From Thermoanaerobaculia bacterium (lineage in GTDB: Bacteria; Acidobacteriota; Thermoanaerobaculia; Multivoradales; J023): a stretch of 64,000 nt of DNA. Location: assembly GCA_028066595.1 (NCBI GenBank), contig JALCBJ010000027.1, positions 1-64,000 of the forward strand, read 5' to 3'. The notes below the pieces were generated by a model. The model was not told where the DNA came from. It did not search any database and saw nothing but the letters and a program-made list of their open reading frames with translations. Both the position numbers and the translations under genes were made by a program. Below are positions 7,078 to 32,100 of this stretch, one piece after another (the stretch's first letter is position 1; every line of letters starts with the position of its first letter).

Positions 7078-7887
7078 ATGTCTATGGTCACTGCGGAAGC
7101 GCTTCCTTCGGCGACGGCTTTCCCTGCCTGGCTTGCCAGAGTCGCGGATCTGACCCGCGAATCCTGGGACAGGTTGATCGACAATCGGTTGAGGCTGATT
7201 CGAATACCGGGTTTCGCCTCCGACACCGAATGTGAGGCTCTGGTTCGGGAGGCGGAGCAGATCGGCTTCGAGCTGTACCGTGAGGTGAGCCCACCGATCG
7301 CGCGGATCGGCGTGACGCTCTTCGAGCACGACGGGATCGGCCATGAGGACTATTTCGTGTCGGCTCAGAAGGCTCGCGAGATCCAGCGCAGGATCTTCGC
7401 CCGATCGTTCGATCCGATCGAACGCCTCATCTCCATGATCCAGTCCAGAACCGGGTATCCGACGGGAGTCGCCTTGGATTCTCAGCACGGTCCGTATTTC
7501 GCTGGAACCGTCCGGCGGATCGAAAGCGGCACCCGCCTGCACATCGACTACGCTCCTGCGGAGCACCCGAGTTGGGAGGTCGCACAGGTGTGCGCGCAAC
7601 TGGCCTGGAACGTCTATCTCGAGCTACCTGAAAGCGGCGGAAACACCCATATCTACGAGCGCCAATGGGTGCCTGCGGACGATGGGCACAAGGAGACAGA
7701 TTCCTATGGCTACGATTCAGCGGTCGTGGCCGGCTCCGAGTGTGTGACCTTCAAGCCGACGCAGGGTGATCTCTATCTCTTCAATAGCAGGAACTACCAT
7801 CTCGTCGACGCAAGTGTCGGTCACCGTACGACGGTGAATTCGGCGGTAGGCCAGACCCGCGACAACAAGGTGGTGCTCTGGTCGTGA
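7078..7887 (+). CDS. 2-oxoglutarate/Fe(II)-dependent oxygenase, probable amino-acid hydroxylase
   Basis: Non-heme iron oxygenase of 269 residues. The iron ligands are readable: His155 and Asp157 in RLHIDYAP and the distal His241 in NYHLVDA. Arg250, nine residues later, is placed to bind 2-oxoglutarate. An HxD rather than HxG/A motif points to hydroxylation rather than halogenation. The overall look is closer to BesD-like enzymes that act on free amino acids than to the phytanoyl-CoA type. It starts a three-gene run with a zinc alcohol dehydrogenase and a ProC homologue, the same reaction order as leucine to 4-methylproline, where the first step is leucine 5-hydroxylation. That substrate is inferred from context only. 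It could instead hydroxylate another residue of the peptide. Confidence 0.85.
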   Translation: MSMVTAEALPSATAFPAWLARVADLTRESWDRLIDNRLRLIRIPGFASDTECEALVREAEQIGFELYREVSPPIARIGVTLFEHDGIGHEDYFVSAQKAREIQRRIFARSFDPIERLISMIQSRTGYPTGVALDSQHGPYFAGTVRRIESGTRLHIDYAPAEHPSWEVAQVCAQLAWNVYLELPESGGNTHIYERQWVPADDGHKETDSYGYDSAVVAGSECVTFKPTQGDLYLFNSRNYHLVDASVGHRTTVNSAVGQTRDNKVVLWS

Positions 7888-7951
7888 GCACGGGAGGGAG
7901 GCGGACCCGGCGATGTTCCGACTCCCCACTGTGGTAGGCGGCTGATCTCAG

Positions 7952-9073
7952 ATGGTCCGCGCGGCGGTGATGCCCGCACCCGGGGAACCGATCCAGGTTC
8001 GTGACTTCGAGACACCCGAGCTCGAACCCGGCGGCGCCCTACTCGAGACCTACTATTCCGAGGTCTGTGGCACAGACGTCCATCTGCACGAGGGCAGGTT
8101 GGCGGGTGTGCCGTACCCCATCGTGCCCGGGCATCTCTCGGTGGGAAGAATCGTCGAGTCCAACGGTCAGCTGACCGACGTCGAAGGCCGGACCATCGCG
8201 GTGGGTACAGACGTCACATTCCTGGACGTTCACGAGACCTGCAATCGTTGCTGGCATTGCCTGGTAGCCAAAGCCACGACGAGGTGCCCGTCCCGACGTG
8301 TCTACGGGGTGACCTACTCGGCCGAGGATGGGCTGCTCGGTGGCTGGGCCGAGCAGATCTACCTGAAGCCCGGCGTTCAGATCGTTCCCCTGCCCGAGGG
8401 AGTGACGCCGCGACTCGCCATCGCGGGAGGCTGCGCGCTTCCGACGGCGATGCATGCGATCGAACGAGCCGAGATCCGGTTGGGCGATTCGGTTTTGGTT
8501 CAAGGCGCTGGCCCCGTCGGGTTGACGGTGGCGGCGCTAGCTCTACTCTCCGGGGCCGGCAGAGTCTGGGTGATCGACCGGCACCAAAGCCGACTCGAGA
8601 CCGCGGAGACTCTCGGTATCGACGAGGCCATCGCGATCGACGACCACCAACCGGCGAACCATGTGGAGCGCTTGCTCGAGCTGAGCGCCGGACGCGGCGC
8701 GGACATCACGATCGAGGCCACGGGTTCGCCAGCCGCAATACCCGAAGGGATCGCCATGACCCGGGACGGTGGTCGGTACGCGATCGTCGGGCACTACACC
8801 GACGCCGGCGAGATCTCGCTCAACCCGCATCTGGACATCAACCGCAAGCATCTGGAGATACGGGGCGTCTGGGGATCGGAGCTGCGCCATCTGTACCGAG
8901 GTATCGGTGTCCTGGCTCGCCACGGTGCGACCTTGGGCGGCGTCGGAGGCTGGGAGCAGCTGATCTCGCGGACCTATAGCCTGTACCAGACGGAGCAGGC
9001 CCTGGACGACGTCCGCCATGGCCGCGTGGTCAAGGCGGTGATCGATCCGAAAATCAGGGATCCTTCCACGTGA
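7952..9073 (+). CDS. Zinc-dependent medium-chain alcohol dehydrogenase (NosE/GriF-like role)
   Basis: MDR-family dehydrogenase of 373 residues. The catalytic zinc site has Cys39 and His61. The structural zinc lobe has Cys97, Cys100, Cys103 and Cys112. The Rossmann dinucleotide motif is GAGPVG, followed by an acidic-then-arginine stretch VIDRHQSR that suggests NAD(H). The residue after the catalytic histidine is unusual: GHL instead of the near-universal GHE. Placed between the oxygenase and the ProC homologue, the likely job is oxidation of 5-hydroxyleucine to the semialdehyde, which cyclises spontaneously. Its stop overlaps the next start as GTGA, so the two genes are coupled. Confidence 0.88.
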   Translation: MVRAAVMPAPGEPIQVRDFETPELEPGGALLETYYSEVCGTDVHLHEGRLAGVPYPIVPGHLSVGRIVESNGQLTDVEGRTIAVGTDVTFLDVHETCNRCWHCLVAKATTRCPSRRVYGVTYSAEDGLLGGWAEQIYLKPGVQIVPLPEGVTPRLAIAGGCALPTAMHAIERAEIRLGDSVLVQGAGPVGLTVAALALLSGAGRVWVIDRHQSRLETAETLGIDEAIAIDDHQPANHVERLLELSAGRGADITIEATGSPAAIPEGIAMTRDGGRYAIVGHYTDAGEISLNPHLDINRKHLEIRGVWGSELRHLYRGIGVLARHGATLGGVGGWEQLISRTYSLYQTEQALDDVRHGRVVKAVIDPKIRDPST

Positions 9074-9888
9074 GACTCGGTTTCATTGGCGGTGGCCGCA
9101 TGTGCGAGGCGATACTTCGCGGCCTGCTCGACCGCGGAGTGGTTCGGGGCCGGGACGTGGTCGTGGCCGAGATCTCCTCCGAGCGGCGACAGGAGCTGGC
9201 GGAGACCTTCGGTGTAGCGACGACGATTCATGGTGTCGATGCCGTTGCCGAGGCGGAGGTCGTGATCCTGGCCGTCAAGCCACAGCACCTGTCGACCGTG
9301 CTCGAGGATCTGCGTCAGAAAACACCGTCGGACACCCTAGTGCTGAGCATCGTCGCCGGCGCGCGATTGTCCATACTCGTAGATGGCCTCGATCATCGAG
9401 TCGTGGTGCGCGCCATGCCTAATACCCCGGCTCAGGTGGGGAAGGCGACCACCGTGTGGACCGCCACGTCGGAAACCGATGACGAGCAGCGCGAGTTGGC
9501 GCGGACGATATTGGGCGGCGTCGGATTCGAGCTCGAAGTCGCGACGGAAGCGCTGGTCGAAGCGGCCACCGGGATCTCGGCCCCCGCACCTGCGTTCGTC
9601 TATCTGCTGGTCGAGGCGATGTCGGACGCCGCCGTCGCGCTCGGATTCAACGCCGAGCAAGCCCAACAACTGGTCCTCGAGAGCTTTCGTGGCAGCCTGG
9701 AGCTCCAGCGGGTGACCGGCGAGCATCCGGCGATCCTCCGTTCCCACGTCACCAGCCCGGGTGGGGCGACCGCCGCCGGCCTCTATGCCCTGGAGCGAGG
9801 GCGCGTGCGCACGGCGATCCACGACGCCGTTCGTGCAGTCTTCGACCGGGCGCAGATCCTCGGCGCATCGGTCGACGACAGACCATGA
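9070..9888 (+). CDS. proC: Pyrroline-5-carboxylate reductase homologue, probable methyl-pyrroline reductase (NosF/GriH-like)
   Basis: ProC-family imine reductase of 272 residues with a GTG start. The N-terminal nucleotide motif GFIGGGRM, the AVKPQ strand near 68, the MPNTPAQVG segment near 116 and VTSPGGAT near 227 are all family hallmarks. The conserved S-G-S-G-P-A-Y stretch of housekeeping ProC reads SAPAPAF here (170-176), which points to a paralogue with altered substrate fit. With the upstream oxygenase and dehydrogenase, the likely reaction is reduction of 3-methyl-pyrroline-5-carboxylate to 4-methylproline. The A domain encoded at 17047-21831 has a proline-type pocket that could use it. 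Ordinary proline synthesis is the alternative. The following 200 bp, convergent with the acyl-CoA dehydrogenase gene, shows no clear terminator. Confidence 0.9.
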   Translation: MRLGFIGGGRMCEAILRGLLDRGVVRGRDVVVAEISSERRQELAETFGVATTIHGVDAVAEAEVVILAVKPQHLSTVLEDLRQKTPSDTLVLSIVAGARLSILVDGLDHRVVVRAMPNTPAQVGKATTVWTATSETDDEQRELARTILGGVGFELEVATEALVEAATGISAPAPAFVYLLVEAMSDAAVALGFNAEQAQQLVLESFRGSLELQRVTGEHPAILRSHVTSPGGATAAGLYALERGRVRTAIHDAVRAVFDRAQILGASVDDRP

Positions 9889-11265: not shown

Positions 11266-14200
11266 TCAGGACGCTTCGCTGACTGCGGCGTCGAGATCGG
11301 CTTCTAGCGATGCGGCCAGCTGATCGACGTGGGGAACCTGCGTCATCGTCTGGTGATTACCACCGACGAAGCGAGTCACGAGGCCGCGGCACAGCTCGGC
11401 CCAACCGAGATCTTCGAGGTCGGTGATCGTCGTAGCGAAATCGCGCTCTTCCTCGGCGCGGTATAGATGGATCCGGCCGCCGTAAGAAGGAGGCCGGTAT
11501 CGCTCCACGGCGGCGAAGTTGTTTTTCGCAACGCGCAACATCCTCCGCGCCTTGTCGACGTCGAAGCTCGGCGGAATGACGTCTTTCTTCTTCGCTTCCT
11601 CGATCACATAGTGCAACCGTTCCTCTTCGCCGAGCTGGCGTAACTCCCTGGCCCCGACTTCGAGCACACCGCCGACCAGAGCGACCAGAACATCGGAGTC
11701 GTCTTGCCGGTGCGATGGTGAGTCGACGACCCACGGCGAATAGGAGTCGAGCATGCCGAGAAAGGAGATCTGTTCGCCGGCAGCCTCGAGCTTGCGCGCC
11801 ATCTCGAACGCGGCGACGCCGCCGAAGGACCAGCCGAGAAGCGCGTAGGGACCACGCGGTCGTCGGGCACGAATCGCCTCGATGTATAGATCGGCCATCG
11901 CCTCGAGGCTCTCTTGTGGCTCCTGGCCGTGCGCCAAGCCGCGAGCTTCGAGCGCGAAGATCGGACGATCCCCGTTCAGGTGCGAGGCCAGCTGCCAGTA
12001 GCAGACCACATTGCCACCGCCCGGGTGAACGCAGTACAGAGGTTCCGCCGTGCCGCGGCCGCGGATCGTGACCATCGGCGACCAGTGCCGGGTCCCACGC
12101 TTTGCTTGGATCAGCAGGGCCAGCTGCTCGATCGTCGTCGCTTGAAAGAGCTCCGTGAGTGGTAGATCCACTCCGAGGACTTCTTTGACAATGGCCATCA
12201 TTCGGACCGCGGCCAGCGACGTGCCACCGAGGTCGAAGAAGCTGTCGTGCACGCTGATCTGTGACCTCTCGAGGACCTCTTCCCAGATGCCCGCCAAGAT
12301 CACTTCGATATTCGACCGCGGTGGCACGGTGGTCGCCGCACGCTCGGACCAGTCTGGTGCTGGCAGGGCTTCTCGGTCGATCTTGCCGCTCGGGGTCTTG
12401 GGCAAGTGTTCGAGAGCTACGAAGGCGGCGGGGACCATGTACTGGGGAAGCCGTAGCGCGAGAGCCTCACGCAACGAAGCGGTGGCCACCTCCTTCCCCG
12501 GTTCGGGAACGAAATAGCCGACCAAGGCCGGCTCACCCGAGGGTAGATCGCGCGGAGCCACCACCGCCTGCACCACGCCGGATTGGTCGACCAGCGCCGT
12601 CTCGATCTCGGCGGGCTCGATGCGGTAACCGCGGATTTTCACCTGGTGGTCGATCCGACCGAGAAAATCGAGCTCGCCATCGGCACGCAGCCGCGCCAGA
12701 TCGCCGGTTCGGTAGAGTCTGCCACCGAGCTCCCCACTGTGCGGATCTGGAACGAACGCTTCCGCGGTCGTGGCCGGTCGGCCGACGTAGCCGCGAGCGA
12801 GGCAGATGCCGCCCACGTAGATCTCACCCGGCGCACCGGGGGCGACCAGCGAGGTTTGCGGATCGCACAGGTAGACGCGTACGTTCTCCATCGGCCGGCC
12901 GATCGACAAGCGCGCGTCGTGGTCTGGCTGGTAGGCGATCGTCGCACAGACCGTGGTCTCGGTGGGACCGTAGGCGTCGAGGAACATACGGTTTCGGCTC
13001 CACTCGGCCGCCAGCCGAGGCGCGCACACTTCACCCGCGACAATGAGAACCGCGAGATCGGGAACGTCAGCGGCGCGCAGCAACTCGAGGGACGAAGGCG
13101 GAATGGTCGCGTGAGTGATCCGTCGCTCCCGTAGCGTCGTGGTCAATTTCGCGCCGGGTAGCAATTGATCGCGAGATCCCAGGTGAAGCGCCGCGCCCAC
13201 GACCAGGGCCATCACGATCTCGGAAACGGCGGCGTCGAAGCTCATGGAAGCAAACTGTAGAACCCGGCTATCGGACTCGACCTGGAAGGCGCGGCTCTGC
13301 GCTTCGGCCAGGTTGACCAAACCCCCGTGGGTCAGCAGGGCGCCTTTGGGTCGGCCGGTAGTGCCGGACGTGTAGATGACGTAGGCCGCTTGGCCGTGTT
13401 TGAGCTCGCCCGGTGGCCTTCGTGGCCTGTGGCGCGCCACCAGGGCCCACTCTCGATCTAGGTCGAGGGTCTCGACGCCGGAGGAGGCGAAGGCCGGACT
13501 GGTGTGGCTATCTGTCAACACTAGGCGGAGGCCCGAGTCCGCGACCATGAAGGCGAGGCGGTGCCAGGGATACTCGGGGTCCAGCGGTAGAAACGCTCCA
13601 CCCGCCTTGAGCACTCCGAGGATGGCAAGCACGGCCGAGGTGGCACCGCGAGTCATCGAGATGCCGACCAGGCTCTCCGGCCCGACCCCGCGGCGGATCA
13701 GCTCATGCGCCAGCTGGTTGGCACGGCGATCGAGCTCGCTGTAGCTGATGAGCTCGTCCTCCGTGACGACCGCCGGAGCGTCGGGGCATTGTTCGACCCG
13801 GGCCTCGAAACGGGCCGGAAAGCTCTCCTGGGGAGGCTCGGTCACGCTGTCCGATGCCCAGCTCGACAGCCGCTGGCGCGCTCGCGCGCCAATCAGATCC
13901 AGGCGACGGAGCTCAGCGGTCGGCGCGGTCAGGCCGGCATTCAAGACCTCCTGCCAGCTGGCGACCAGGTCTCCGATGGTCGACTCGCGATAGAGGCCGC
14001 GGTCGAAGCGAGCTCGGCCATCGATGTGATCGGTTTCTTCCTCGAGGTCGATCTCGATCGCTGCGCCGACTTCGGGTAGCTCCGAGTGAAGGCCCTCGAG
14101 ACGCACGGTCAGCTCGAAGAACGGCCGATCTCCGAGCCGGGCTCCGAGGGCGTCCAGCACCTGCTCGTAGGGGATCAGCTGGTGAGAGTAGGCGTCGAGC

Positions 14201-14610
14201 AGCGTGGAGCGCATCGCGAGCAAGAGCTGTTGAAACGAGGCGTGCGGTTCGATGTTGGAGCAGATCGCCAGGGCGTTGACGTGGTCACCGACCAGGCGTG
14301 CGGGACTTCCGACGCATACCTGCGAAGTCCGCAGGTGAGGCTGCAAGCTGACGGATAGGGCGGTCATCAAGGTGGTGTAGCTCAGAAAGCTGCCGCCGTT
14401 GGTCAGCCTCTGTAGGCGTCGGTAGAGATCTCCATCGATTTGCCATCGCAGCTCCCCTCGGCGCTCGCCATGAGCTTCGGAGGGAGCGAAGTCACAGATC
14501 AGCGAAGATCGGGACTGACGGCCGGAAAGGCGCTCTCGCCAGTACTCGCGTTCTTGGTACAGACCACGGTCGAAGGTGGGTGGTCGCCGCGTGGCTCCTT
14601 GGCTGATCAT
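11266..14610 (-). CDS. Terminal NRPS module: half-C-A(Tyr)-T-TE
   Basis: Last assembly-line protein (1114 residues), adding the final residue and releasing the product. Residues 15-240 are only the C-terminal lobe of a condensation domain, with no HHxxxDG. The A domain (about 265-755) has YTSGTTGRPKG at 413-423, and its pocket residues read D-A-S-T-I-A-A-V-C-K, very close to the published tyrosine code. The carrier serine is Ser798 in LGGTSLAA. The thioesterase (about 855-1114) has GWSFGG with nucleophile Ser928 and a late histidine in GGNHQTM. The ATG at 14610 overlaps the radical SAM stop as ATGA; a longer open frame upstream is only an overlap artefact. The missing N-lobe suggests that the C domain ending the protein encoded at 17047-21831 makes this peptide bond. 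Release by hydrolysis or macrocyclisation cannot be told. Confidence 0.93.
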   Translation of the reverse strand: MISQGATRRPPTFDRGLYQEREYWRERLSGRQSRSSLICDFAPSEAHGERRGELRWQIDGDLYRRLQRLTNGGSFLSYTTLMTALSVSLQPHLRTSQVCVGSPARLVGDHVNALAICSNIEPHASFQQLLLAMRSTLLDAYSHQLIPYEQVLDALGARLGDRPFFELTVRLEGLHSELPEVGAAIEIDLEEETDHIDGRARFDRGLYRESTIGDLVASWQEVLNAGLTAPTAELRRLDLIGARARQRLSSWASDSVTEPPQESFPARFEARVEQCPDAPAVVTEDELISYSELDRRANQLAHELIRRGVGPESLVGISMTRGATSAVLAILGVLKAGGAFLPLDPEYPWHRLAFMVADSGLRLVLTDSHTSPAFASSGVETLDLDREWALVARHRPRRPPGELKHGQAAYVIYTSGTTGRPKGALLTHGGLVNLAEAQSRAFQVESDSRVLQFASMSFDAAVSEIVMALVVGAALHLGSRDQLLPGAKLTTTLRERRITHATIPPSSLELLRAADVPDLAVLIVAGEVCAPRLAAEWSRNRMFLDAYGPTETTVCATIAYQPDHDARLSIGRPMENVRVYLCDPQTSLVAPGAPGEIYVGGICLARGYVGRPATTAEAFVPDPHSGELGGRLYRTGDLARLRADGELDFLGRIDHQVKIRGYRIEPAEIETALVDQSGVVQAVVAPRDLPSGEPALVGYFVPEPGKEVATASLREALALRLPQYMVPAAFVALEHLPKTPSGKIDREALPAPDWSERAATTVPPRSNIEVILAGIWEEVLERSQISVHDSFFDLGGTSLAAVRMMAIVKEVLGVDLPLTELFQATTIEQLALLIQAKRGTRHWSPMVTIRGRGTAEPLYCVHPGGGNVVCYWQLASHLNGDRPIFALEARGLAHGQEPQESLEAMADLYIEAIRARRPRGPYALLGWSFGGVAAFEMARKLEAAGEQISFLGMLDSYSPWVVDSPSHRQDDSDVLVALVGGVLEVGARELRQLGEEERLHYVIEEAKKKDVIPPSFDVDKARRMLRVAKNNFAAVERYRPPSYGGRIHLYRAEEERDFATTITDLEDLGWAELCRGLVTRFVGGNHQTMTQVPHVDQLAASLEADLDAAVSEAS

Positions 14611-17027
14611 GGGTTGGAGGTACCCGTCGAGGCCAGGTCGAAGCTGAACGCCGCCTCGGCGTCGAGGGCGACCGCGGCCTCCACCGCGAGCTGTTGGTCG
14701 AGGCTCGCTCGCGACACCGGCTCGGTGCCGTCGGCCCAGTGGCTCAAAATTCGGCAGGTCTCCCGGCCGAGCTCGGTCATGTCGGCAAGATGTCGCTGCG
14801 CGGGATCGAAGCCGATCGTCAGCTCGGGTCGCTCGGTAGAGCCACCGATCGTCAACTCGATGCTGATCTGCCGGGCAATCCCGGGTGCGTCGTGGTCCAG
14901 ACGCTCGCGACTCGGTGACGACTCCCCGTCGCGATGGACGCAGACCATGGTGTCGAAACGCGGCGGGTCGTCGCCGCGCCACGCGAGCCAGGCTGGATCC
15001 TGCAGACAGGCGAGAGCAAAAGGTCGGTGCTCCTCGAAGGACGCCAGCTCCTCGTGCATCGAGTGGAGGACCCGATCCGGATCGAGCCGCGAGACCTCGA
15101 GCTGAAGTGGCGCCAGCTCGCCGACCTCGCCACTGGCAGAGATCGGTGACAGCAAGGTCAGCTCGGAGCGACCCTGCCACCGGGCCAAGGCGGCGGCGAA
15201 CGCGGCGACGATCACGTCCGGCTGTTTCCACCTCGTGTCGAGGTCACCAGCTGCCGGCCACTGGACTTGCTCACTCGACCAGCCCGGTTCACCGATGGCG
15301 TCGTTCCGGGTTGTGGTGTTCTTTGCCGGCCTGGAGCCGTACGTGGACCAAAATTCTCGGGCGGCGCTATAGCGACCTGGCCACCAGAGATCGGAAGTCG
15401 TGAGGCCCGGACGGTGCTCGTGGTCGGTGCCGAACTGCGAGCACCTCTCGAGATCGCCCAGCAGGGCAGGCCGTTCGGAATGGCGCCGGTGAAACAAGAG
15501 ATTCTCCCGCACCACGGTGTTGAACGAGGCGACGAAGTCCATCACTTGCTGCCAGCTCATTCCCTGCCGTTGCAAGTAGAAGGTGCTCCATTGCTCGAAG
15601 CCCCATTGTGGTAGCCAGCACGACCCCTCCACGGACAGGAAGAGGTCGTCGATCACCGCGCACGCCGTGGCGGCATCCATGGTCGCGTGGGACCAGTTGA
15701 AGGCCGAGCCCTCGATGTCGTAGCGCTCCCGCTGTTGCCAGATCGGCGTCATCGGATCGCAGTACCAAAGCTGCGCTCGAAAGAAGTCGGGCTGGCCGGT
15801 CTCGAGGAGGTCTCGGGTCTCCTCGACCGTTTCCATGGTCTCGCCGGGAAAGCCGATGATGAGGCTGGCGTAGGTCGAGATCCCGGCCTCCCTGAGCCGC
15901 GGAAGAGCCGCGAGATAGTGCTGGCGGCGTGCGGTTTTGTTCATCCGCTTCAGCATCGTGTCGCTACCGGACTCGATCCCGAGGAACACACCCTCGCAGC
16001 CGGCTTGGCCCATGAGATCGATGATCTCGGCACTACCGTGGTCACTTCGATAGAAGCTATTCCATCGAAAGCCGTAGTCGTTGCGGATCATCATCTCGAG
16101 GATGGCGCGAAAGCGTTTCGGCGGCACGTTGAAGGTGTCGTCGAGGAACGTGAGCGTGTTGACGGTTCCGAGATCTCGGATCGCGTCGAGCTCGCGTTCC
16201 ACCGCCTCGACCGACTCGAAGACATATTTCCCGGCCCGTTGCGGAAAGCCGCAGAATGAGCAGGAGAAGGGGCAGGACTTGGCAGTGCGCAACGAGATCA
16301 TCTGACCCACGTCGGCGGGCGGGAAGAGCGACAGGTCCGGCTGGTTGTCCTCCAGGGAATTGACCTCGGGCTCGCATCCGGTGCGCGTGAACCGACCATC
16401 GATTCGGTAGGCGATATTCGGTACGGAGGAGAGATCTTGGCCGCCGCGCAAGGCTTTCAACAGCCGCGCGAGGGTCGCCTCGCCTTCCTGATTGATCACG
16501 TAGTAGTCGCCGCCGAGGTAACCGAAAAGCCGGGCCAACGTCGCTTCGTCATTGGTTCCGGACTGGTTGGCGATGAAAGGGCCACCGATGATCACGGGCA
16601 CCGACGGGTCGTGCTGACGGACGAAGGAAACGATCTCCGAGATCGGTGCCGGGGAGACATAGAAGGTCGTGAGGATCGCCACCGTACGGACCGAGCCGGT
16701 CGCCAGCTTGTCGGCCAGGCGATCCTTTTCGAGCTGGAAGGCATTGACGTAGTCGAAGCTCAGACCCTGGCGAGACAAGTAGGTGCCGAGATAGGCGATT
16801 CCCGGTGACAGGAAGTCTGTATTGTGAAACTGCTTCTCTCCGGACGCCCGGTGGTAGTGACTGAGCGCGTCGAGCGCGCGCATCGGCCTGCCGTCGACCT
16901 CGACGAAGGCCAGGCGTAGATCCCGATAGGCTCCGGCATCCCCAGATCGGACCATCTCTACATAGCTTTGGAAGTCCGAGTCGTTGTGGCCGATCAGCAG
17001 GCAATCTACGTTCGTTGCTTCGCTCAC
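14607..17027 (-). CDS. B12-binding radical SAM (PhpK-like) fused to a C-terminal half-condensation domain
   Basis: Protein of 806 residues. Residues about 1-200 form a cobalamin-binding domain, with the opening VDCLLIGHNDSDFQSYVEM typical of PhpK-like enzymes from biosynthetic clusters. The radical SAM cluster motif is Cys252-x3-Cys256-x2-Cys259 (CPFSCSFCGF). This family methylates unactivated carbon or phosphorus centres, so a C-methylation of the peptide or a precursor is likely. About 250 further residues, beyond the usual ~550, match the C-terminal lobe of an NRPS condensation domain (pattern VIVAAFAAALARWQGRSELT and a late RFDTMVCVHR strand) without any active-site histidines. The GTG start at 17027 has an excellent AAGGAG. 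It sits between two NRPS genes, and the tail may dock it to the assembly line. The methylated position is unknown. Confidence 0.87.
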   Translation of the reverse strand: MSEATNVDCLLIGHNDSDFQSYVEMVRSGDAGAYRDLRLAFVEVDGRPMRALDALSHYHRASGEKQFHNTDFLSPGIAYLGTYLSRQGLSFDYVNAFQLEKDRLADKLATGSVRTVAILTTFYVSPAPISEIVSFVRQHDPSVPVIIGGPFIANQSGTNDEATLARLFGYLGGDYYVINQEGEATLARLLKALRGGQDLSSVPNIAYRIDGRFTRTGCEPEVNSLEDNQPDLSLFPPADVGQMISLRTAKSCPFSCSFCGFPQRAGKYVFESVEAVERELDAIRDLGTVNTLTFLDDTFNVPPKRFRAILEMMIRNDYGFRWNSFYRSDHGSAEIIDLMGQAGCEGVFLGIESGSDTMLKRMNKTARRQHYLAALPRLREAGISTYASLIIGFPGETMETVEETRDLLETGQPDFFRAQLWYCDPMTPIWQQRERYDIEGSAFNWSHATMDAATACAVIDDLFLSVEGSCWLPQWGFEQWSTFYLQRQGMSWQQVMDFVASFNTVVRENLLFHRRHSERPALLGDLERCSQFGTDHEHRPGLTTSDLWWPGRYSAAREFWSTYGSRPAKNTTTRNDAIGEPGWSSEQVQWPAAGDLDTRWKQPDVIVAAFAAALARWQGRSELTLLSPISASGEVGELAPLQLEVSRLDPDRVLHSMHEELASFEEHRPFALACLQDPAWLAWRGDDPPRFDTMVCVHRDGESSPSRERLDHDAPGIARQISIELTIGGSTERPELTIGFDPAQRHLADMTELGRETCRILSHWADGTEPVSRASLDQQLAVEAAVALDAEAAFSFDLASTGTSNP

Positions 17028-17046: not shown

Positions 17047-20000
17047 TCAGAACCGGAATGCCTCGACCAAGTCGCCGGCCAGAGTCTCCGGAGGTGGCGC
17101 CGGAGCCTGGGGCAGACCGAAGTCGACATCGAGCAACCGTTGCTCCGGCCGGTCGGCGAGGACCTCCAGTAGCAGCAGGAAGCGGTCTCTCATCTCGATG
17201 ATCGTCGAGGGATCGAAGAGATCGCTGTCATAGGCCAGCGATCCCGCGATGCCTCGGTCGTGTTCTTCGAGTGCCATCAGCAGGTCGTAGCCGAGATGGC
17301 CGGCATAGGTCGAATATGGCTCGAGATCGAGATCGCCCAGACGCAACCGGGACCGGGTCTTGCTCTGCAGGGTCATTGCGACCTGTGCGATCGGATGGCG
17401 GTGCGGTTGGCGCTCGGGGAGGAGGTTGCCGACCACCAGATCGAACGGCAGATCCTGATGGGAATATGCCTCGATGGCAGTCTTTCGCGTCCTGCCGAGC
17501 AACTCGTCGAAGGACGGATCTCCAGTCAGATCCAGGCGCAGTGCCACCACGTTGGCGAAGGTGCCGATCAGAGGCTCGACCTGAGGGTGACTTCGATTGG
17601 CCACCGGGCACGCGATGATCTGATCTTCGTTGCCGGTGTAGCGGTAGAGAAGACAAGAGAATGCTGCCAGGAGAGCCATGTAGAGACTGGCACCGTGCTC
17701 CCGGGTACGCTCCTGGAGCCGGGTGGTCAGGTCGGTGTCGAGCTGCAGCTCGATGCAGTCGCTGCGCAGACTCGGCACGGTCGGACGAGGTCGATCCAGG
17801 GGCAGAGGCGCCAGCGGCGGAGCTCCGGTGAGTCGGTGGCACCAATACTCGAGCTGACCCTCGAGAACCCCGCCGACTTGTTGGCGCTGCCAGTGCGAGT
17901 AGTCGGCATATTGCACCTCCAGCTCGCTCAGGGGCGACGGCAGGGCGGTGACGAAGGCGCCATAGAGCGCGGAGAGCTCGGTGGTGATCACATCCACGGA
18001 CCAGCCGTCCGAGATGATGTGGTGCATCACCACGATCAGCACGTGATCGCGCGCCGAGCATCGGACCAGGCAGAGCCTCAGCAAGGGTCCCGTCGCGAGA
18101 TCGAAGGGCTTTCGGATCTCTTCGTCGATGAGCCGCTCGATCCAGCGTGTCTGGAGCCCAGCACCGGATGCCGACAGGTCGATGAGCCGAAGCGCGGGAC
18201 GGCTGGCGGTAGCGACGAGCTGTACCGGTGTCCCACGTTCATCGTGGAAGGTCGTGCGGAGCGACTCATGCCGGCGGACGATCTCCACCAGCGATTGGTG
18301 AAGCGACTCGAGGTGTAGCCTGCCGTGGAGCCGGAGAGCTGCGGGCATACTGTGGTTCGAGGTTCCGGCCGACATCCGTTCCAAAGTCCACATCCGCTCC
18401 TGGGCAAACGAGAGGCGCCGTCGGTCACCATCCGACGCCGTGGTGATCGGCGTCACAGCGGCTCTCTCGTTCTGTCGGAGCTGCCGGCTGAGGGCGGCGA
18501 TGGTCGGACATTCGAAGAGATCGCGCAGCGACACTTCGGCACCGGTTCGACCGCGGATCCTGCTCAGAAGCCGGGCGGCTAGCAGCGAATGACCGCCCAG
18601 GTCGAAGAAGTCGTCGTCGATGCCGAGCGTCGGCACATCGAGGATCTCGCGCCAGAGATCTACGAGGAGCGATTCCAGTGGATCTCGTGGCGCTCGGGAG
18701 CGATCCTGCGGACTCCGCGGGCCGGGATCCGGCAGCGCGCGACGGTTGATCTTGCCGCTCGGAGTCTTGGGAAACTCCTCGAGCAGGACGAAGGCTTTGG
18801 GCAGCATGTACTCCGGAAGCAGCCCACGCAGGTGACGAGCCAGCTCCTCCTCGTCCGGTCGCGAGCTCTTCGACACGACGTAGGCGACAAGGTACGGCCC
18901 GGTGGTCGAATCGCGCTTGGGCACCACTACCGCCTGCGTGATCCCCGGGAAGTCCATGAGAGTGGCCTCGATCTCCCCGGGCTCGACCCGGTAGCCACGG
19001 ATCTTGACCTGATGATCGATGCGACCGAGGAACTGGAGCGAACCGTCGTCCGACCTCCGGCACAGATCGCCGGAGCGGTAGAGCCGGTCGCCGGGGCGTG
19101 CGCCGAACGGATCCGGCAAGAAACGAGCCGCCGTCTGTGCCGGCCGGTGGACGTAGCCCCGACCCAGGATGTCGCCGCCGAGCACGAGCTCGCCGTCGAG
19201 GCCTGGGGACGACAATCTCAGAAAGCCACTGGTGACATGGGCGCGTGCGCCTTCGATCGGTCGGCCGATCGAGGGCAAGTGGGGCCAATCGGCGGGTTCT
19301 CCGCGTAGCGGATGGAACGTAGCGAGGTGCGTCTCGGAGGGGCCGTAGTGATTGTCCAGCGTCGTGACGTTTCGGCTCAGGACCGCTCGAATCGCCGGCG
19401 TCATCTGCAACTGTTCGCCGGCTGTGTAAAGGTGCCGAAGAGTCGGTGGCATCCCGATCGCGGCCGCTTCCTCTGCCAGCTGCTGGAGCGCCACGAACGG
19501 CAGAAACATGCGTTCCACCGCGGTCTCGTGCAGGAGTCTCAGCAGCTCGACCGGATCTCGCCGGATCTCGTCGGAGATCAGATGCAGCGCTCCGCCCTCG
19601 ACCCAGGTGGAGAAAGTCTCCTGCATGAAGACGTCGAAGCTCATCGGTGCGAACTGGAGCGTGCCGCGTGGTGGTGGATCGGTCTGCCCAGCCTGCCAAA
19701 AGGCGAGGTTGCGGAGCGTCCGATCGGGGATCGCGACGCCCTTCGGCTCACCGGTGGAGCCCGAGGTATAGACGATGTACGCGAGCTGGTCCGGAAGCGC
19801 CGGACGATGGTGGGTGGAGACCGCCGGACGCCCGGCGGCGTACGGCCGGCCTCGCTCGAGCCAGAGGAGCGCGGTCGCCGAGTCCTGCGCGGCTTCACAC
19901 TCGCGGCTGGCAAGAATCAACGTCAGACCGCAGTCGCGCTCGAGGAAAGCGCGCCGCTCGGCGGGGTAGGCAGGGTCGATGGGCACCAGCACGCCGCCGG

Positions 20001-21831
20001 CGAGGTGGATCGCGAGCACGGCGATCAGCGTTTCCGGAGCACGCACCGTGTAGACACCCACTGCCACCTCGGGCCCGACTCCGCGGTTCCGAAGCTCACG
20101 GGCCAGCGCCTGGGCCTCGACCACCATCGTACGGTAGGTGAGCGCACCTCCCCGCCATTCCAGTGCAACGGCATCCGGTTGTCGGCGGGCATGCTCGACG
20201 ATGCGATCGGCCACGGTCATTCGTCGTACGTCGCCGGCCGTCTCCGCGGCAGCTCGGGGACGGAGCTCCTGATTCCACACCGAAGCTTCGAGGCGGTGCT
20301 GCTGCTCTCCGACCAGCTCGAGATCGTCGATTCGCTGTTCGGGTTGCCGCGCGAGTGTCTCCACGACGTTCAGAAATCCGGCGGCCAGAGCTTCGATCGT
20401 GCTCGGCTCGAAGAGCCCGGCTTCGTATTCCAGATGTCCGCGGACACCTGCGGCGGTCTGTTCCAAGGACAGTGTGAGATCGAACTTCGCCTCACCGTTG
20501 ACGAGGGGCAAGGGCTCGAAGCTCAGCTCCGAGGTCGGCAATGCACGCTCGACCCCCAGGCGGTTCTGGAAGGCGAACATGACCTGGAAGAGTGGATTGC
20601 GGTCGAGGGAGCGCTCGGGTCGGACCGCTTCGATCACTCGTTCGAAGGGCACGTCTTGGTGATCTTGGGCCGCCACGACGGTCCGTCCGACGTGTCGCGT
20701 CAGACCGGCGAGAGTCGAGCCACCCTGAAGCTCCAAGCGGAGGGCGAGGGTGTTGGTGAAGAAACCGACGAGCGCCTCGGTTTCGCGGCGGTTGCGATTG
20801 GCGATCGGTGTGCCGATCACGAGGTCGTCCTGGCGGGACGACCGTGCGAGGAGCGCGACGAAGGCGGCGAGCAAGCCGCTGTACAGCGTCGTTCCCAAGG
20901 CGCGGCAGCGATCCTCGAGGTGCGTGACTTGCTGCGAATCGAGCTGGATCGAGCGATAGCCCGCGGCGGATCCCGCCTCGTGACGATGTTCGAGCCTCGG
21001 CAGATCCAGGGACTCGGGTGCGCCCTGCAGATGTTGACGCCAGAAGTCGAGCTGACGTTCGAAGCGCTTTGCTGTGCCGTCGCTTCGCTGCCAGCGGGCA
21101 AAGTCTGTGTACTGGATCGGTAGGGGTGGGGAGGCGGCCGGCCTACCTGTGGAGTAGGCGTCGAGCCCGTTCGTCATTTCGGTCTGCAACAAGCCGACGG
21201 ACCAGCCGTCGGCCACGATGTGGTGGAGGCAGAGGCCGAGGATCCGGTCGGTGGGGCCCAGGTCGATCAGGAACGATCGCAGCAATGGACCGTGCTCGAG
21301 GTCGAAGGCCCGCCGGGCGCCTTGGTCGAGAACCTGTTGGGCGACCTGCTCGCGCCGCTCGGCGGGGAGTCGGCTCAGGTCGATGCGCAGCATCGGCATC
21401 GACGCCGTGGCTCGCATCTGAGTCGGCGTCTCGTCGACTTCTCGGATCACAGTCCGCAGAACTTGGTGCCGCCGACGGATCTCTGCGAGCGACTGCTCGA
21501 GAGCCGAGGTGCCGAGCGGACCGCGAACACGATGCGCCGAGGGTACGTTGTAGACGGCACGGTCGCCGTCGAGACGACGGAGGAACCAGAGACGTTGCTG
21601 AGAGAACGAGAGCGGTGCCGGCGATCCATCCCTGCACGCGTGGATCGGCTCGTCGGAGGCTGACTTCGAGGCAAGTAGCTCGAGCATGGGAGCCTTGTGA
21701 CTCTTGAGCTCCGCCAGCAGATCGGCGGTCATCGCGCCCGGCGGGGCACTGAAACGGAGCGCTTCGCCGTCTGCCCAGAGGCGGACCTCTCTCGCGCGCA
21801 GGCGGCCGAGCAAGTCGCGGATCGCGCTCAC
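17047..21831 (-). CDS. NRPS: docking-C-A(Pro/methylproline)-T-C
   Basis: Protein of 1594 residues. Residues 1-55 are a TubC-type beta-hairpin docking domain. The first C domain (about 74-515) has an LCL-type opening LSFSQQRLWFL and HHIVADG at 203-209. The A domain (about 530-1035) has YTSGSTGEPKG, and its pocket reads D-V-Q-F-Y-A-H-L-A-K, which belongs to the proline group (DVQxxAHxx). The carrier serine in LGGHSLLAA is near 1081. A second LCL-type C domain (about 1137-1594, HHIISDG) ends the protein and should join the prolyl chain to the tyrosine on the last module. The pocket fits free proline or the 4-methylproline implied by the plus-strand genes. The GTG start overlaps the upstream stop (GTGA). 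The stop lies 19 nt before the radical SAM start. Confidence 0.93.
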   Translation of the reverse strand: MSAIRDLLGRLRAREVRLWADGEALRFSAPPGAMTADLLAELKSHKAPMLELLASKSASDEPIHACRDGSPAPLSFSQQRLWFLRRLDGDRAVYNVPSAHRVRGPLGTSALEQSLAEIRRRHQVLRTVIREVDETPTQMRATASMPMLRIDLSRLPAERREQVAQQVLDQGARRAFDLEHGPLLRSFLIDLGPTDRILGLCLHHIVADGWSVGLLQTEMTNGLDAYSTGRPAASPPLPIQYTDFARWQRSDGTAKRFERQLDFWRQHLQGAPESLDLPRLEHRHEAGSAAGYRSIQLDSQQVTHLEDRCRALGTTLYSGLLAAFVALLARSSRQDDLVIGTPIANRNRRETEALVGFFTNTLALRLELQGGSTLAGLTRHVGRTVVAAQDHQDVPFERVIEAVRPERSLDRNPLFQVMFAFQNRLGVERALPTSELSFEPLPLVNGEAKFDLTLSLEQTAAGVRGHLEYEAGLFEPSTIEALAAGFLNVVETLARQPEQRIDDLELVGEQQHRLEASVWNQELRPRAAAETAGDVRRMTVADRIVEHARRQPDAVALEWRGGALTYRTMVVEAQALARELRNRGVGPEVAVGVYTVRAPETLIAVLAIHLAGGVLVPIDPAYPAERRAFLERDCGLTLILASRECEAAQDSATALLWLERGRPYAAGRPAVSTHHRPALPDQLAYIVYTSGSTGEPKGVAIPDRTLRNLAFWQAGQTDPPPRGTLQFAPMSFDVFMQETFSTWVEGGALHLISDEIRRDPVELLRLLHETAVERMFLPFVALQQLAEEAAAIGMPPTLRHLYTAGEQLQMTPAIRAVLSRNVTTLDNHYGPSETHLATFHPLRGEPADWPHLPSIGRPIEGARAHVTSGFLRLSSPGLDGELVLGGDILGRGYVHRPAQTAARFLPDPFGARPGDRLYRSGDLCRRSDDGSLQFLGRIDHQVKIRGYRVEPGEIEATLMDFPGITQAVVVPKRDSTTGPYLVAYVVSKSSRPDEEELARHLRGLLPEYMLPKAFVLLEEFPKTPSGKINRRALPDPGPRSPQDRSRAPRDPLESLLVDLWREILDVPTLGIDDDFFDLGGHSLLAARLLSRIRGRTGAEVSLRDLFECPTIAALSRQLRQNERAAVTPITTASDGDRRRLSFAQERMWTLERMSAGTSNHSMPAALRLHGRLHLESLHQSLVEIVRRHESLRTTFHDERGTPVQLVATASRPALRLIDLSASGAGLQTRWIERLIDEEIRKPFDLATGPLLRLCLVRCSARDHVLIVVMHHIISDGWSVDVITTELSALYGAFVTALPSPLSELEVQYADYSHWQRQQVGGVLEGQLEYWCHRLTGAPPLAPLPLDRPRPTVPSLRSDCIELQLDTDLTTRLQERTREHGASLYMALLAAFSCLLYRYTGNEDQIIACPVANRSHPQVEPLIGTFANVVALRLDLTGDPSFDELLGRTRKTAIEAYSHQDLPFDLVVGNLLPERQPHRHPIAQVAMTLQSKTRSRLRLGDLDLEPYSTYAGHLGYDLLMALEEHDRGIAGSLAYDSDLFDPSTIIEMRDRFLLLLEVLADRPEQRLLDVDFGLPQAPAPPPETLAGDLVEAFRF

Positions 21832-24800
21832 AGCACTCCCTCTTCGAGAATCTCGTCACCGCTGGGCTGCGGCGGCTGGCTGGCGACGCTTTCGAGGTCG
21901 TCGATGACAGCACCCAGGCTTCGAACCGTCGGGTTCTCGACGATCAGTTGCATCGGAAGCAGCAGCGAGAACACGTCGCGCAGACGAGAGATCACCTGCG
22001 TGGCCATGAGTGAGTGGCCCCCGAGCTCGAAGAAATCGTCGCCGACATCGAGTTGGTCGATTCCGAGCACTTCTGTCCAGACCCGCGCCACTTTTCGTTC
22101 GGTGGCGCTGTTGGGCGGCCCTTCGACACGTCGGCGGGCTGGTTTCCCGGGCTCTGGCAAGGAGGCCAGGTCGATCTTGCCCCGAGAGTTCAGAGGGATG
22201 TCGTCGAGGTACACCAACCGTTCCGGCACCATGTGACTCGGCAGCACATCCGCCAGCTGGGTGCGCAGGTAGAGCTGATCGAGGCCGAATCCGCTGCCGG
22301 AGCTGGCGGTCTTCGGCTTGGCGCGCTCCGGGCTCCCGCTGTAGTAGGCCACGAGCTCCTGCTGACGCCGGTTCGTTGGCCGATAACCGATCTGCACGAG
22401 AATGTCCTCGACCCGCGCGGCGTCGATGTCGTCGTCGAGCTCGTCGACCGCTTCACTCCAGGTCTTGTGGCCCAGGCGCACATCCCAGGAGTAGGGCAGG
22501 GCATAGTTGTGAAAGCCCCTCTCCCGTTTGTGCACGCTGATCCCGACATCGTTGATCAGGCAGTTGGTCGAGCGGCCGGTATCCGATGGCCGGATCCACG
22601 GTGCATGCTCCGCTAGATACCGGATCATCTCGCCGAGCTCAGCCTCGCTGTAGCGGTAGAAGTCCACAAACCGGACCTCGTCGAAGATCGAGTCGTCGGC
22701 GAACAGATCTCCGGCGAGGTGCTCGGCGCAGGCGTCGGCTTCGCGGTGATAGGCCTTGCGCGCGTCGTGCACGGTTTGATCGATCTCGGCCGGCTCCCAG
22801 ACCCCCACTCGATGCAGCTCGGCGAGGCGAGTCTCGAAGATCTGACCGCGGGAGAGGCCGGTCACGATGTATCGAATGCCGCGTTCGCGCGCCAACCTCA
22901 TGCCGAGGGTGTAGATCGTCTTGAAGCAGCCGTTGCAGACGTTGCTGAAGCGCTGCAAACTGTCGCGGAAGATCTCGTCCATGTGTGGCGTCGTGGCCAC
23001 GTGATGCTCGACGCCCAGGTGGTCGGTGACGCGGCGGATATTGGCCAAAGTCTGCTCGGATAGGAATCCGTTGTCGAGGGTGAAGACCAGCACGTTGAGC
23101 CCGAGCTCCGCCACCAGCTGGTAGAGGGCGTAGGTGCTGTCCTTGCCACCGCTGTAGAGCATGATGCAGTCGTGGCGGGGCGCGGTCGCCCGCTGCTCGA
23201 AGAGTGCTTCCAGTTCTTCGAACGGGCGAAAGTACTCGGCGGCACGATGCCGATGGCGTTCGTACTCGTGACAGATCGTGCATACGCCATCGTCTTCGAA
23301 CGTCGCCATCGGATGCTCGGACGACAGGCCGCAGCGTGCACATCGGAGGACCTCGTCGTCCACCGCCGCGCCGCGGAGGGTCACCACGCATTGCTCGACG
23401 CCTTCGACCTCGCCGAGGGCCTGCTCGATCTCCGCCGGATCGACACGGAATCCCTGGATCTTCAGCTCTCGGTCGATCCTGCCTCGGAACTCGAGCTGGC
23501 CATCGGGCCGGAGGAGGGCGCGGTCACCCGAGAGATATCGTCGCTCTCCCGTCGCGAGGGGGTCGGGCAGGAAGCGCTCGGCGGTCAGACGCGGATGGCC
23601 GAGGTAGCCGCGAGCCACACCAGCACCGGCGATGAGCAGCTCCCCGGTGACGCCATCGGGCACGGGCTCGAGCCGCCCATCGACGACGCAGAGGGTCGTG
23701 TTGTCGATCGGTCCGCCGATGGCCACTGCGGCGCGCTGATCGGATTCGGAGTCGAAGCGGTGGAGGGCGCAACCTACGACGCATTCCGTTGGCCCGTACT
23801 CGTTGAAGATCGCGGCGCCCACCGGCAGAGCTGCAGTCACCTCGCGGGCTAGATCGGTCGGGAACTGCTCACCACCGACGATCAGGCGCGAGAGCCGGCG
23901 ACCGGGCGACGCTTGGGCGAGCAGGCGGAGATGGGACGGTGTGACCTTGAGCACGTCGACCCGATCGTCCTCCACGACGGTCAGAACCTCGAGGTCGGCG
24001 GATGTCGATCGCCGTTCGTAGACTTCGAGCGTCCCTCCGGTGATCAGCGGTAGGAAGAGAGATGTGACCGTGAGGTCGAAGGACAGCGACGAGCAGAGCG
24101 CGAAGCTGGTCTCGGCGTCGATCGAGTAGGCGGAGCGAGCCCAGAACAGGTAGTTCATCAGCCCGCCGTGGGTGACCATCACTCCCTTCGGACGACCGGT
24201 GGAACCGGAGGTGTAGAGCACGTAGGCGAGCTCGCCAGGCACGATGTTGCGCCGTGGGGTTGCCGGTCGTCGCCGTGAGTCAGGAATCGTCCGCGGATCG
24301 ATCTCGACCACATGGCCGTGCCACTCGAGGTCCGAGATTCGTGCGAGCTGATTTCGGGTCGTCACCACGGCTGACGCACCGCTTTCCGCGAGGAGCGTCG
24401 TGATCCGAGCGTCGGGGTCGCCGGGATCGATAGGCACGTAGGCGGCACCGGCCTCGAGTACGCCCAGTATGGCCACAACGGCGGAAACCGAGCGCGGCAG
24501 TAGCACCGCGACCACGTCGCAGCGGGCGACTCCGGCCTCCGCCAACTGATGGGACACGGCATCCGCCCACCTCGCTGTTTCCCGAAAGCTCAGCTGGTGG
24601 TCCCGACCTCGTAGCACGAGCCTGTCGGGATTCTCGACGGCCCGTTGCCGGAAGAGATCGACGACGGTTTCAGCAGCACGAGGCCGATGGGTAGCCTGCC
24701 GCTGCGCTTCCAGCCGGTGGCGCTCGGACGGGGAGAGAAGCGACAAGGTGCTCAGTGCCCGTTCGGGAGCGTCCGTAGCAGCGCGTAGCAGGATCTCCAG

Positions 24801-29189: not shown

Positions 29190-32100
29190 GAAGTGATGCC
29201 CTCGAGCTCTTCCAGGCTGATCCCTGAGTACGTCAGATCGGCGGGCGTCACTTCGGGGTGCAAACGGCCACTGCAATGATCGATGACTTCGCCGATCGAA
29301 TCGCGCAGCGCGACGAGCAGCGCCTCCGTGCGGTGGCGGGAGAATCGGTGGCGGCTGTAGCCGATCTCCAGGAAGAGCCGTCCGCGGAGCACCGCGGCTC
29401 CGATATCCAGCTCGGTGGGCCGGGGGCTGTTGCCGTCGACGGAATCGCCGACGGGCTCCGACACCATGATCAGATCGCCGACGGTCATGGAAGCGTCGAA
29501 ATCGCCCAGATAGTTGAAGCTGGTGAGCGGTGCTGCGGGCTGGCTGCTTTCAGCGTTCAACAAGCCGTAGCCGAGACCGCGGTCGGGCACCGAGCGCAGT
29601 GCCTCCTTGATCGACTTGATCTGAAAGCCGAGGTCCTGGCCGGCGGGCAGCTCGAGTTGAAAAGGAAACCTCGTGGTGAACCAGCCGACGGTGCGCTCGA
29701 CCGGCAGGCCACTCGGCTGCTCGCCGAGGTCCTCACGTCCGTGTCGTTCGAGCACGATGACGCTGGACTTGGCGTCGGCCCAGATCTCCAGCGCGCGCGC
29801 CAGAGCTGTGAGAAGCAGATCCTCGGCGGTGGTCGAGTACGCGGCATTCGCCTTGACTCGCAGCAGATCGGTGCGCTCCTTCGATAGCTCGGTGCTGATC
29901 TGCTCCAGATCACGATAGCGGTTCGAGCCCTGCGGGTCGTCAGGACTGATGGCGACCGAATGTCCCTCGACCGCTTCCCAGTACTCCGCCTGCCGGCGGA
30001 TCGATGGGGAAGATGCGAGCTCGCCGAGCCTGGCTGCCCAGCTGCCGTAGGTTGCCGTCGACGGCGGCAAGGCGATCGGCCTCCCGTCCACTGCCTGCCG
30101 ATAGGCGGCGACGAAGTCATCCAGCAGGATGCGCCACGACGTACCGTCGATCACCAGGTGGTGGCCGACGAACAGGAGCCGATCACCGCGCGGATGGCGG
30201 AAGAGCGCAGCCTTGAACAACGGACCTTCCTCGAGGCGCAAGCTACCTTGGGTGCGGTGGGCGTGGCGTTCGAGCGCCCGCAGGGGATCTTGGTCCGGCT
30301 CGAGCTCCACCTCCTCGACGACGCACTCGAGCTCGACTTCCACCCGGCCGATCCAGCCGTCTCGAGTCTTGTGGAAGGTCGTCCGAAGAGCCGGATGTCG
30401 GGCGAACAGTCCGTTGATCGCCAGCTGGCAGGCGTTGGCCTCGAAGCCCACGCGATGTACAAAGAGCAAGGCTTGGTTGAAATGCTGTGGGCAGTGCTCG
30501 AAGTGGCGGAAGAACCAGCGCTGGATGGGTGCCAGGGGCTGCGGACCCTCGAGCGGCACGTCGGTGCGCTGCCGCGCCAGCCTCTTCAGTCGCGGTGTGA
30601 GCTCGGCAACGGTGGGATGAAGGAATAGATCCTGGACCCCGAGGCCGAGGTCGTGCTCGAGCAGACGCGACACCACCTGGATCGCCTTGATCGAGTCTCC
30701 ACCGAGGGCAAAGTAGTTGTCGTGGATCCCGACACGATCTCTACCGAGAACCGCGCCCCAAGCTTCGGCCACGGTTTGCTCGACAGCATTCCGCGGCGCC
30801 GCGAATTCGCTGCCGAGATCCAGATCCTCGACCTCGAGGGCTGCGAGGGCGCGCCTGTCGACCTTGCCGGACGAAGTCAGAGCGAGGGCCTGATGGCGAA
30901 GGAACCTGGAGGGAACCATGTACTCGGGAAGACACTCCAGCAAGCTGCCGCGCAGCAGCTCGACACTCAGCGAGCGATCGCCAGCGAAGTGCGCGATCAG
31001 CGAGCCTCCACCATCTCCTTCGGGATCGAACCGCACCGCCGCCTGTCGTACACCTTCGATCTCGAGGAGCGCGGCCTCGATCTCGCCAGGCTCGATGCGA
31101 AAGCCCCGGACCTTGATCTGATCGTCGATGCGGCCGCAGTAGATGAGATCTCCGTCGGTGAGCTTGGCGCGGTCACCGGAGTGGTAGAGGCGTTCGGAGT
31201 CGGCGAACGGATGAGGGCCGAATCGCTGAGCGGTGAGGCCAGGCTGACCGGTGTAACCGCGGGCGACGCCGGCCCCGGCGACGCAGATCTCCGCCGGTGT
31301 CCCTTGCGGCACGAGCTCGCCTCGGCGATCGAGTAGCAGGGTCGCCAGGGTCGGGATCGGCCGTCCGACGTTGGATAGATTGGCCGCGATCTCAGCGCCG
31401 CCGATTTCTTTGAACGTGACATGCACGGTCGTCTCCGTGATGCCATACATGTTGATCAGACGTGTGGACGGATAGCGCCGGGCAAACGACGCGAGGATCA
31501 CCGGCTTGAGCGCTTCTCCTCCGAAGATGAGGTATCGAAGCTCCAGCAGAGAGGGCAGGGTGTGCTCGCGGTCCGCCAGACCCGTGAACGCCGACGGTGT
31601 CTGGTTCAAGATCGTGACGCGTTCGAAGGTCAAGACGGCGAGGAGGGAATCGACGTCCCGAACGATCGGTCGTGGCACGATGACCAGTCGCGCTCCCGTG
31701 AGCAATGCGCCGTAGATCTCCCAGACCGAGAAGTCGAAGCTCGGCGAATGCACCAGCGCCCATCGGTCGTGCGTCGTGAAGTCGAAGAGGGGGCGATCGG
31801 TGGTGAGCAGACGAAGCACGTGTCGGTGCTCGACGACGACACCCTTGGGTCGGCCGGTGGAACCGGATGTGAAGATTACGTAGGCGGCCTGTCCCGGTGC
31901 CGGTCCGCTCCTGAGGTTGCCCGTGTTGGCGTCGGATGACTGGGTCGAGTGTGCTCCGAGCGTCATCGTTTTGACCGCCAACCCGTCCAAAACCGCCTTC
32001 ACGCCGGGCTCGATGAGCACGATCCCGGCGCCCGAGGCCTCGATCAGATACTCGACCCGTTCCTGCGGATACTCGGGATCGATGGGTACGTAGCAGCCGC

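Follow-up and report, generated by a model that had tools for sequence, protein, structure and literature searches.

A radical SAM gene and its C-terminal extension

The window analysed here, a stretch of 64,000 nucleotides from a Thermoanaerobaculia bacterium (assembly GCA_028066595.1, contig JALCBJ010000027.1, positions 1 to 64,000), carries a cluster of nonribosomal peptide synthetase (NRPS) genes of the peptide-antibiotic kind and, among them, a gene for a cobalamin (B12) radical S-adenosylmethionine (SAM) enzyme with a long C-terminal tail (Table 1). An earlier, sequence-only reading had described an 806-residue protein in which a B12 radical SAM enzyme is followed by the C-terminal lobe (C-lobe) of an NRPS condensation (C) domain without its catalytic histidines, and had suggested that this tail serves recruitment to a carrier-bound substrate, possibly by binding the T domain or the neighbouring half-C. 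A check of open reading frames (ORFs) confirmed the frame and length of the gene, and the match to TIGR04479 bore out the enzyme assignment. The gene starts with GTG, 5' of which lies the sequence aaggag, and its stop codon overlaps the ATG of the downstream gene as ATGA.

Table 1. Features of the radical SAM gene and of the flanking NRPS genes (A, adenylation; T, thiolation; TE, thioesterase domain)
Feature	Coordinates	Strand	Remarks
PhpK-family cobalamin radical SAM enzyme with C-lobe tail, 806 aa	14607..17027	(-)
Complete radical SAM core, residues 8-506	15510..17006	(-)	TIGR04479 positions 2-504 of 504
CPFSCSFC, radical SAM CxxxCxxC cluster motif, residues 252-259	16251..16274	(-)
C-lobe of an NRPS C domain, residues 554-766	14730..15368	(-)	N-lobe absent; floor-loop segment shortened
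Helix and FSFDL-type peptide at the C-terminus, residues 773-806	14610..14711	(-)	Resembles ends of NRPS subunits preceding half-C subunits
Upstream NRPS subunit, TubC_N-C-A-T-C	17047..21831	(-)	Last C has HHIISDG; C-terminus VEAFRF
Complete terminal C domain of upstream subunit	17125..18414	(-)
Downstream gene, half-C (C-lobe only)-A-T-TE, 1114 aa	11266..14610	(-)
Half-C opening the downstream protein	13873..14559	(-)	Without N-lobe and much of floor-loop and latch segments

The core scores 699.1 bits against TIGR04479, the model of the PhpK family, for which the curated cut-off is 600, and the alignment covers essentially the full model, indicating that the enzyme core is complete and that the remaining ~300 residues are extra. 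The three Cys of the cluster motif are invariant across the 12 aligned family members, and the N-terminal cobalamin-binding region matches PF02310 below the cut-off of that model. At third codon positions the G+C content of the tail (0.80) is close to that of the core (0.81), both in the frame of the radical SAM gene, and a stop-free run of 267 codons has a chance of ~0.002 at the local G+C. The agreement in third-position G+C and the long open frame show that the tail is coding sequence, read in the same frame as the core.

The tail was not detected as a C domain by searches with Pfam and NCBIfam (E up to 1) or against PDB sequences (E up to 10), and a Pfam match to Caudal_act (E 0.09-0.2) lies below the cut-off and was set aside as a chance match. 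A profile of 11 C domains from the window gave 9.1 bits for the tail, against a best value of 4.1 among 1000 shuffles, none of which reached the score of the tail. Profiles were also made after splitting 29 C domains from the cluster and related loci into their lobes. The C-lobe profile scored the tail at 13.5 bits (best shuffle 6.9); the N-lobe profile did not list it, ruling out that the tail is an N-lobe, and no HHxxxDG motif is present in the tail. Furthermore, hhalign comparison of the single tail sequence with the 29 C-lobes, the tail itself excluded, returned a probability of 84%, with an E of 7.7e-6 and a score of 42.1 over 207 columns. All controls fell below this score: 200 shuffles reached at most 19.9, the tail in reverse gave 13.9, and two core segments gave 13.0 and 11.2. 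The alignment is colinear across the entire lobe. The tail is nonetheless very divergent, with a mean identity of 13.9% to 25 other C-lobes and the longest branch of the tree (3.2).

In AlphaFold2 predictions with only family members as alignment rows, the tail stayed unmodelled, with a predicted local distance difference test (pLDDT) value of 22-47, and with the 29 C-lobes as rows it reached a pLDDT of 81.5 and a predicted template modelling score (pTM) of 0.78. Comparison of this guided model by Foldseek and VIA-align returned many solved C, epimerization, cyclization and X domains, the best match being the C-terminal half of 2jgp (residues 254-522; Z 19.1, root-mean-square deviation 3.5 over 222 residues); the P450-recruiting X-domain (4tx2/4tx3) gave Z 17.7-17.8.

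On this sequence evidence, residues 554-766 are assigned to the C-lobe of an NRPS C domain that lacks its N-lobe, and the likeness put forward by the sequence-only reading is upheld by the profiles, by hhalign with its shuffles and by the guided model. The catalytic histidines are indeed absent; the reason, however, is that the whole N-lobe carrying HHxxxDG is missing, and not that a C domain has decayed. Having no N-lobe and hence no HHxxxDG site, the tail should not catalyse condensation.

Orphan C-lobes at NRPS subunit junctions

The radical SAM gene is flanked by an upstream NRPS subunit that ends in a complete C domain and by a downstream subunit that opens with a C-lobe only, termed here a half-C. 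Condensation in the last module does not need the half-C, because the complete C domain that closes the upstream subunit can provide it. The beta-hairpin docking domain PF18563 is present on the upstream subunit and on the products of 35163-40181 and 45666-49451, and none was found on the downstream subunit. The A domain of the latter has the code DASTIAAVC, which we take to be Tyr/Phe-like. The codes of the A domains that follow the radical SAM gene vary among loci, and a common substrate could therefore not be inferred.

In C domains, the C-lobe extends two elements to the N-lobe, namely the floor loop and the latch (available portion of PMC11546977). Segment lengths were taken between fixed alignment columns, and the assignment of these two names to the columns is our own. 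The floor-loop segment comprises 12 residues in the tail, 12 in the half-C of the window and 16 in a second half-C from genome G438; its length is 20-28 in 25 C domains and 21 in each of two degenerate ones. A shortened segment in both the tail and the half-Cs is as expected for lobes without an N-lobe partner.

After the lobe, the radical SAM protein continues for about 40 residues, forming a helix and then the sequence AAFSFDL, and its C-terminus reads AVEAAVALDAEAAFSFDLASTGTSNP. Where a half-C gene is preceded by a protein with a terminal C domain, that protein terminates in VEAFRF (window), EGFDFD (G438) or ERFSFEL (G454). An F-x-F motif within the last 20 residues was found in 3 of the 11 C-terminated ends examined, exactly the three that precede a half-C gene, either directly or with a radical SAM gene in between; the remaining eight include two near-identical ends. 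No F-x-F was found in the last 40 residues of the 12 other family members compared.

Among 96 full-length C-lobes from the loci examined, some of which repeat one place, C-lobes without a preceding N-lobe occur at three distinct places (window, G438 and G454), besides one cut at the edge of a locus. In the G438 locus, too, a radical SAM gene of the same family separates the half-C subunit from the C-terminated subunit upstream of it. This gene belongs to another clade (L122) and is interrupted by a frameshift and a stop codon (L129, about 9400-9510), reflecting either an assembly error or a decayed gene. In G454 (L166 9829-9836), a single base separates the half-C gene from the stop codon of a preceding C-terminated subunit that ends in FSFEL, and no radical SAM gene is present, so that the orphan C-lobe junction exists without any such enzyme. 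The half-Cs of the window and of G438 group together in the tree (93/92). Half-C profile searches of 147 and 272 genomes ranked the query sequences first, followed at ~100-130 bits by ordinary C domains; the half-C of G454 was found within this second group. No further half-C emerged when the 60 loci returned by these searches were checked for N-lobes.

A specific kinship of the tail with degenerate full-length C domains near G438 and G450 was considered and rejected: a tree fork joins them (83/54, on long branches), but the pair ranks 402 of 406 by profile. The pair of half-Cs ranks similarly low (403 of 406), for which reason we do not claim that tail and half-C are specifically related. The top-ranking pair profiles include the window C domain at 47691-48479 and are too weak to name the source of the tail. 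Separately, degenerate full-length C domains of the LSPLQRRLW type, without HHxxxDG, lie near family radical SAM genes in L124 (3756-4991) and L129 (3370-4686).

Other features were observed in the window and in related genomes. In the product of 21828-29276(-), the second A domain carries a PP-loop/QueC-like insert at about residues 2037-2109 (PF06508, E 8e-5), and its code, DLTKVGEVG, is presumably Asn-like. The insert resembles the AMDH domain of CysH, which is inserted in an Asn A domain and makes beta-cyanoalanine or isoasparagine. The product of 29186-35152(-) opens with two tandem C domains, the second of which has HHIVADR in place of HHxxxDG. At 7078-9888(+), genes for a 2-oxoglutarate oxygenase (WelO5-like), a Zn-alcohol dehydrogenase and a pyrroline-5-carboxylate reductase are consecutive, a row that resembles a cassette for 4-methylproline from leucine. 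In addition, single open frames of 17277-18228 aa surround C domains in G238:C18, G440:C18 and G380:C31, revealing extremely large NRPS genes in the class.

Distribution of the enzyme family and proposed role of the tail

Family members were sought in overlapping sets of genomes: a sample of the phylum (396 genomes), the class (148), two other classes (38 and 193) and the phylum of a Thermomonosporaceae genome (396). One contig scan, dominated by other radical SAM proteins, contributed one family member (L023). The 12 other members compared comprise 11 intact proteins of 529-558 aa and one fragment, none with a C-lobe tail. A 14th member, the broken gene of G438, shows no tail in the other frames, and the fragments L016 and L017 are outside this count. 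A search of 396 genomes with the tail yielded two weak matches (E 5e-4 and 7e-4), which by eye lie in unrelated frames, and plasmid records gave no match to the core at E 1e-40.

NRPS genes adjoin the radical SAM gene in 10 of 14 loci (window, L020, L124, L125, L126, L128, L129, L130, L023 and L127, the last with a C domain at G456:C117), and no NRPS genes were found in the available stretch of L018, L019, L022 (a short one) and L133. The closest relatives of the window protein, L012 and L132, group with it in one clade (100/100) and are located in a non-NRPS operon with a SelO-like protein. Such an operon, in which a SelO-like protein is followed by a stand-alone PhpK-family enzyme, recurs in L018 (1663-8860) and in L132 and L133 (G330 and G1009), and in G330 it continues with genes for a HAD protein, an O-methyltransferase and another B12 radical SAM enzyme.

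The explanation that we favour, with a probability of roughly one half, is that a PhpK-family B12 radical SAM methylase acquired the end of an NRPS subunit, consisting of one C-lobe and a docking-type peptide, and is recruited by this tail to the half-C-A-T-TE subunit. It draws on the computed family of the core, the homology of the tail to C-lobes, the loop loss common to tail and half-C, the resemblance of the end peptide and the coupling of the genes. The tail would act as a handle keeping the enzyme on the adjacent subunit, with the orphan C-lobe of that subunit as its likeliest receptor, and the enzyme would then methylate either a residue carried by the T domain of that subunit or the completed chain prior to release by the TE domain. 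Recruitment is the most likely role because the tail ends in a peptide like those of the subunits that precede half-C subunits, and the downstream gene, coupled by overlap, encodes a half-C subunit; together with the floor-loop loss in common with half-C subunits, the end peptide lends partial support to the role first suggested from the sequence alone. Binding to the half-C would place the enzyme at a carrier-bound substrate, for which an aromatic residue is the likeliest candidate if the DASTIAAVC code is read as assumed above. The reaction would be C-methylation, as the family suggests. P-methylation of a phosphinate is unlikely, since no phosphoenolpyruvate (PEP) mutase above the cut-off was found in the genome itself, which is 95% complete (best match 31 bits against 319.55); matches below the cut-off are present in control genomes too.

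Several observations weigh against this explanation. The tail occurs in one of the 13 family members with a readable C-terminus, that of the window, and the homologue search for the same fusion gave no second case. Nine tail-less members adjoin NRPS genes and the radical SAM gene of G438 sits at a like half-C junction without a tail, so that the tail is not required for association with NRPS genes, which is common in the family but works without it. The latch segment of the tail, at 26 residues, is of normal length (23-42 in the 25 C domains), unlike those of the half-Cs (14 and 16). The F-x-F comparison was made post hoc and is small (3 versus 8 ends), and in the radical SAM protein the motif sits 10 residues before the end. 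Moreover, structure prediction gives a C-lobe fold for the tail when guided by C-lobe rows and leaves it unmodelled without them; the guided model is thus not independent of the homology claim, and supports the fold without independently proving it.

The single fused example, the strong divergence of the tail (13.9% mean identity, branch length 3.2) and the unfused relatives at similar NRPS junctions would also fit a relic, in which insertion at an NRPS gene end, or recombination with it, let the radical SAM gene capture the last lobe by read-through, the functionless tail being merely tolerated. We consider this the strongest of the alternatives, yet less likely than recruitment, because the fold signature, the frame and the codon bias have been retained despite long divergence, as has the docking-type end, and the tail has lost the floor loop in common with the half-C subunits. 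The adjacency and translational coupling of tail and half-C, each one lobe of a two-lobe fold, could alternatively mean that the tail takes the N-lobe position and pairs with the downstream half-C as a non-catalytic pseudo-C domain, split over two coupled genes, that holds subunits and enzyme together. This is improbable: both partners are C-lobes and the N-lobe is absent, the shortened floor-loop segments speak against a C-domain-like pair, and the half-C subunits of G438 and G454 have no partner lobe fused nearby. Least probable is that the enzyme makes a methylated amino acid before loading, or, like other B12 radical SAM enzymes, methylates a phosphinate or SAM, with a tail irrelevant to substrate delivery, for although the family is named for PhpK, a P-methyltransferase, and Orf29, a different class B enzyme in its own clade, methylates SAM (PMC7277169, in the part available), the genome has no PEP mutase over the cut-off, no ACC-synthase-type pyridoxal phosphate (PLP) enzyme was found among the ORFs scanned around the radical SAM gene, and the NRPS-derived tail would be left unexplained.

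Recruitment through the tail thus remains our preferred explanation, and a broader proposal may tentatively be attached to it. The orphan C-lobe that opens a subunit could be the receptor for the F-x-F peptide that ends the upstream C-terminated subunit, forming an undescribed class of NRPS docking, and the radical SAM methylase might have taken over the same end, C-lobe included, for recruitment in trans. In our judgement, little is known of how radical SAM methylases that act in trans locate their carrier-bound substrates in NRPS pathways. A natural enzyme fused to a piece of an assembly line offers a directly testable handle, by cutting or swapping the tail, and the orphan C-lobe junction with F-x-F ends, seen in three genomes that belong to a single bacterial class, might give assembly-line engineering an additional docking pair.

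Comparison with known systems

No fusion of a B12 radical SAM enzyme with a condensation domain was found in the searches made of the open-licence literature. The window enzyme shares with the PhpK family the whole core, the cluster motif and the N-terminal cobalamin-binding region, and differs in its C-lobe tail, which the other members lack, and in that a phosphinate substrate is unlikely. A functional parallel is CysS of the cystobactamid pathway, which to our knowledge is not of the PhpK family. CysS is a B12 radical SAM methylase of an NRPS pathway that methylates a pantetheinylated substrate; its own C-terminal domain contributes to the substrate channel, and the accessible part of the source does not present that domain as a C-lobe (PMC12846815). 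The SAM C-methylase Orf29/Swb7 has an adjacent PLP-dependent 1-aminocyclopropane-1-carboxylate (ACC) synthase of the Orf30/Swb6/GnmY type, and none was found in the Pfam-scanned ORFs of the cluster, the short ORFs being only partly scanned.

Among docking systems, oxidases, methyltransferase domains and halogenases are described as carrying docking peptides or hairpin docking domains (PMC9113145, as partly available). The pairs of short linear motif (SLiM) and beta-hairpin involve a short C-terminal peptide that ends a megasynthase subunit or a tailoring enzyme (same portion of PMC9113145), to which the F-x-F end of the tail may correspond; in the window, in contrast, the downstream subunit opens with an orphan C-lobe and has no PF18563.

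Precedents for a recruiting C-domain derivative are the X-domains, which recruit P450s (PMC11546977, available portion). Like the tail in its proposed role, the X-domain of glycopeptide NRPSs (4tx2, 4tx3) is a C-domain-derived, non-condensing recruitment platform for a tailoring enzyme; it is, however, a complete two-lobe domain on the NRPS, whereas the window presents a single lobe on the tailoring enzyme. By the definition given in the same portion of PMC11546977, of two lobes in an NRPS and HRxxxDD in the N-lobe, the tail is not an X-domain. Finally, an isolated C-terminal C subdomain has been described there to contact and influence an A domain on co-expression; that subdomain was an experimental construct, whereas the lobe in the window is a natural fusion to another enzyme.

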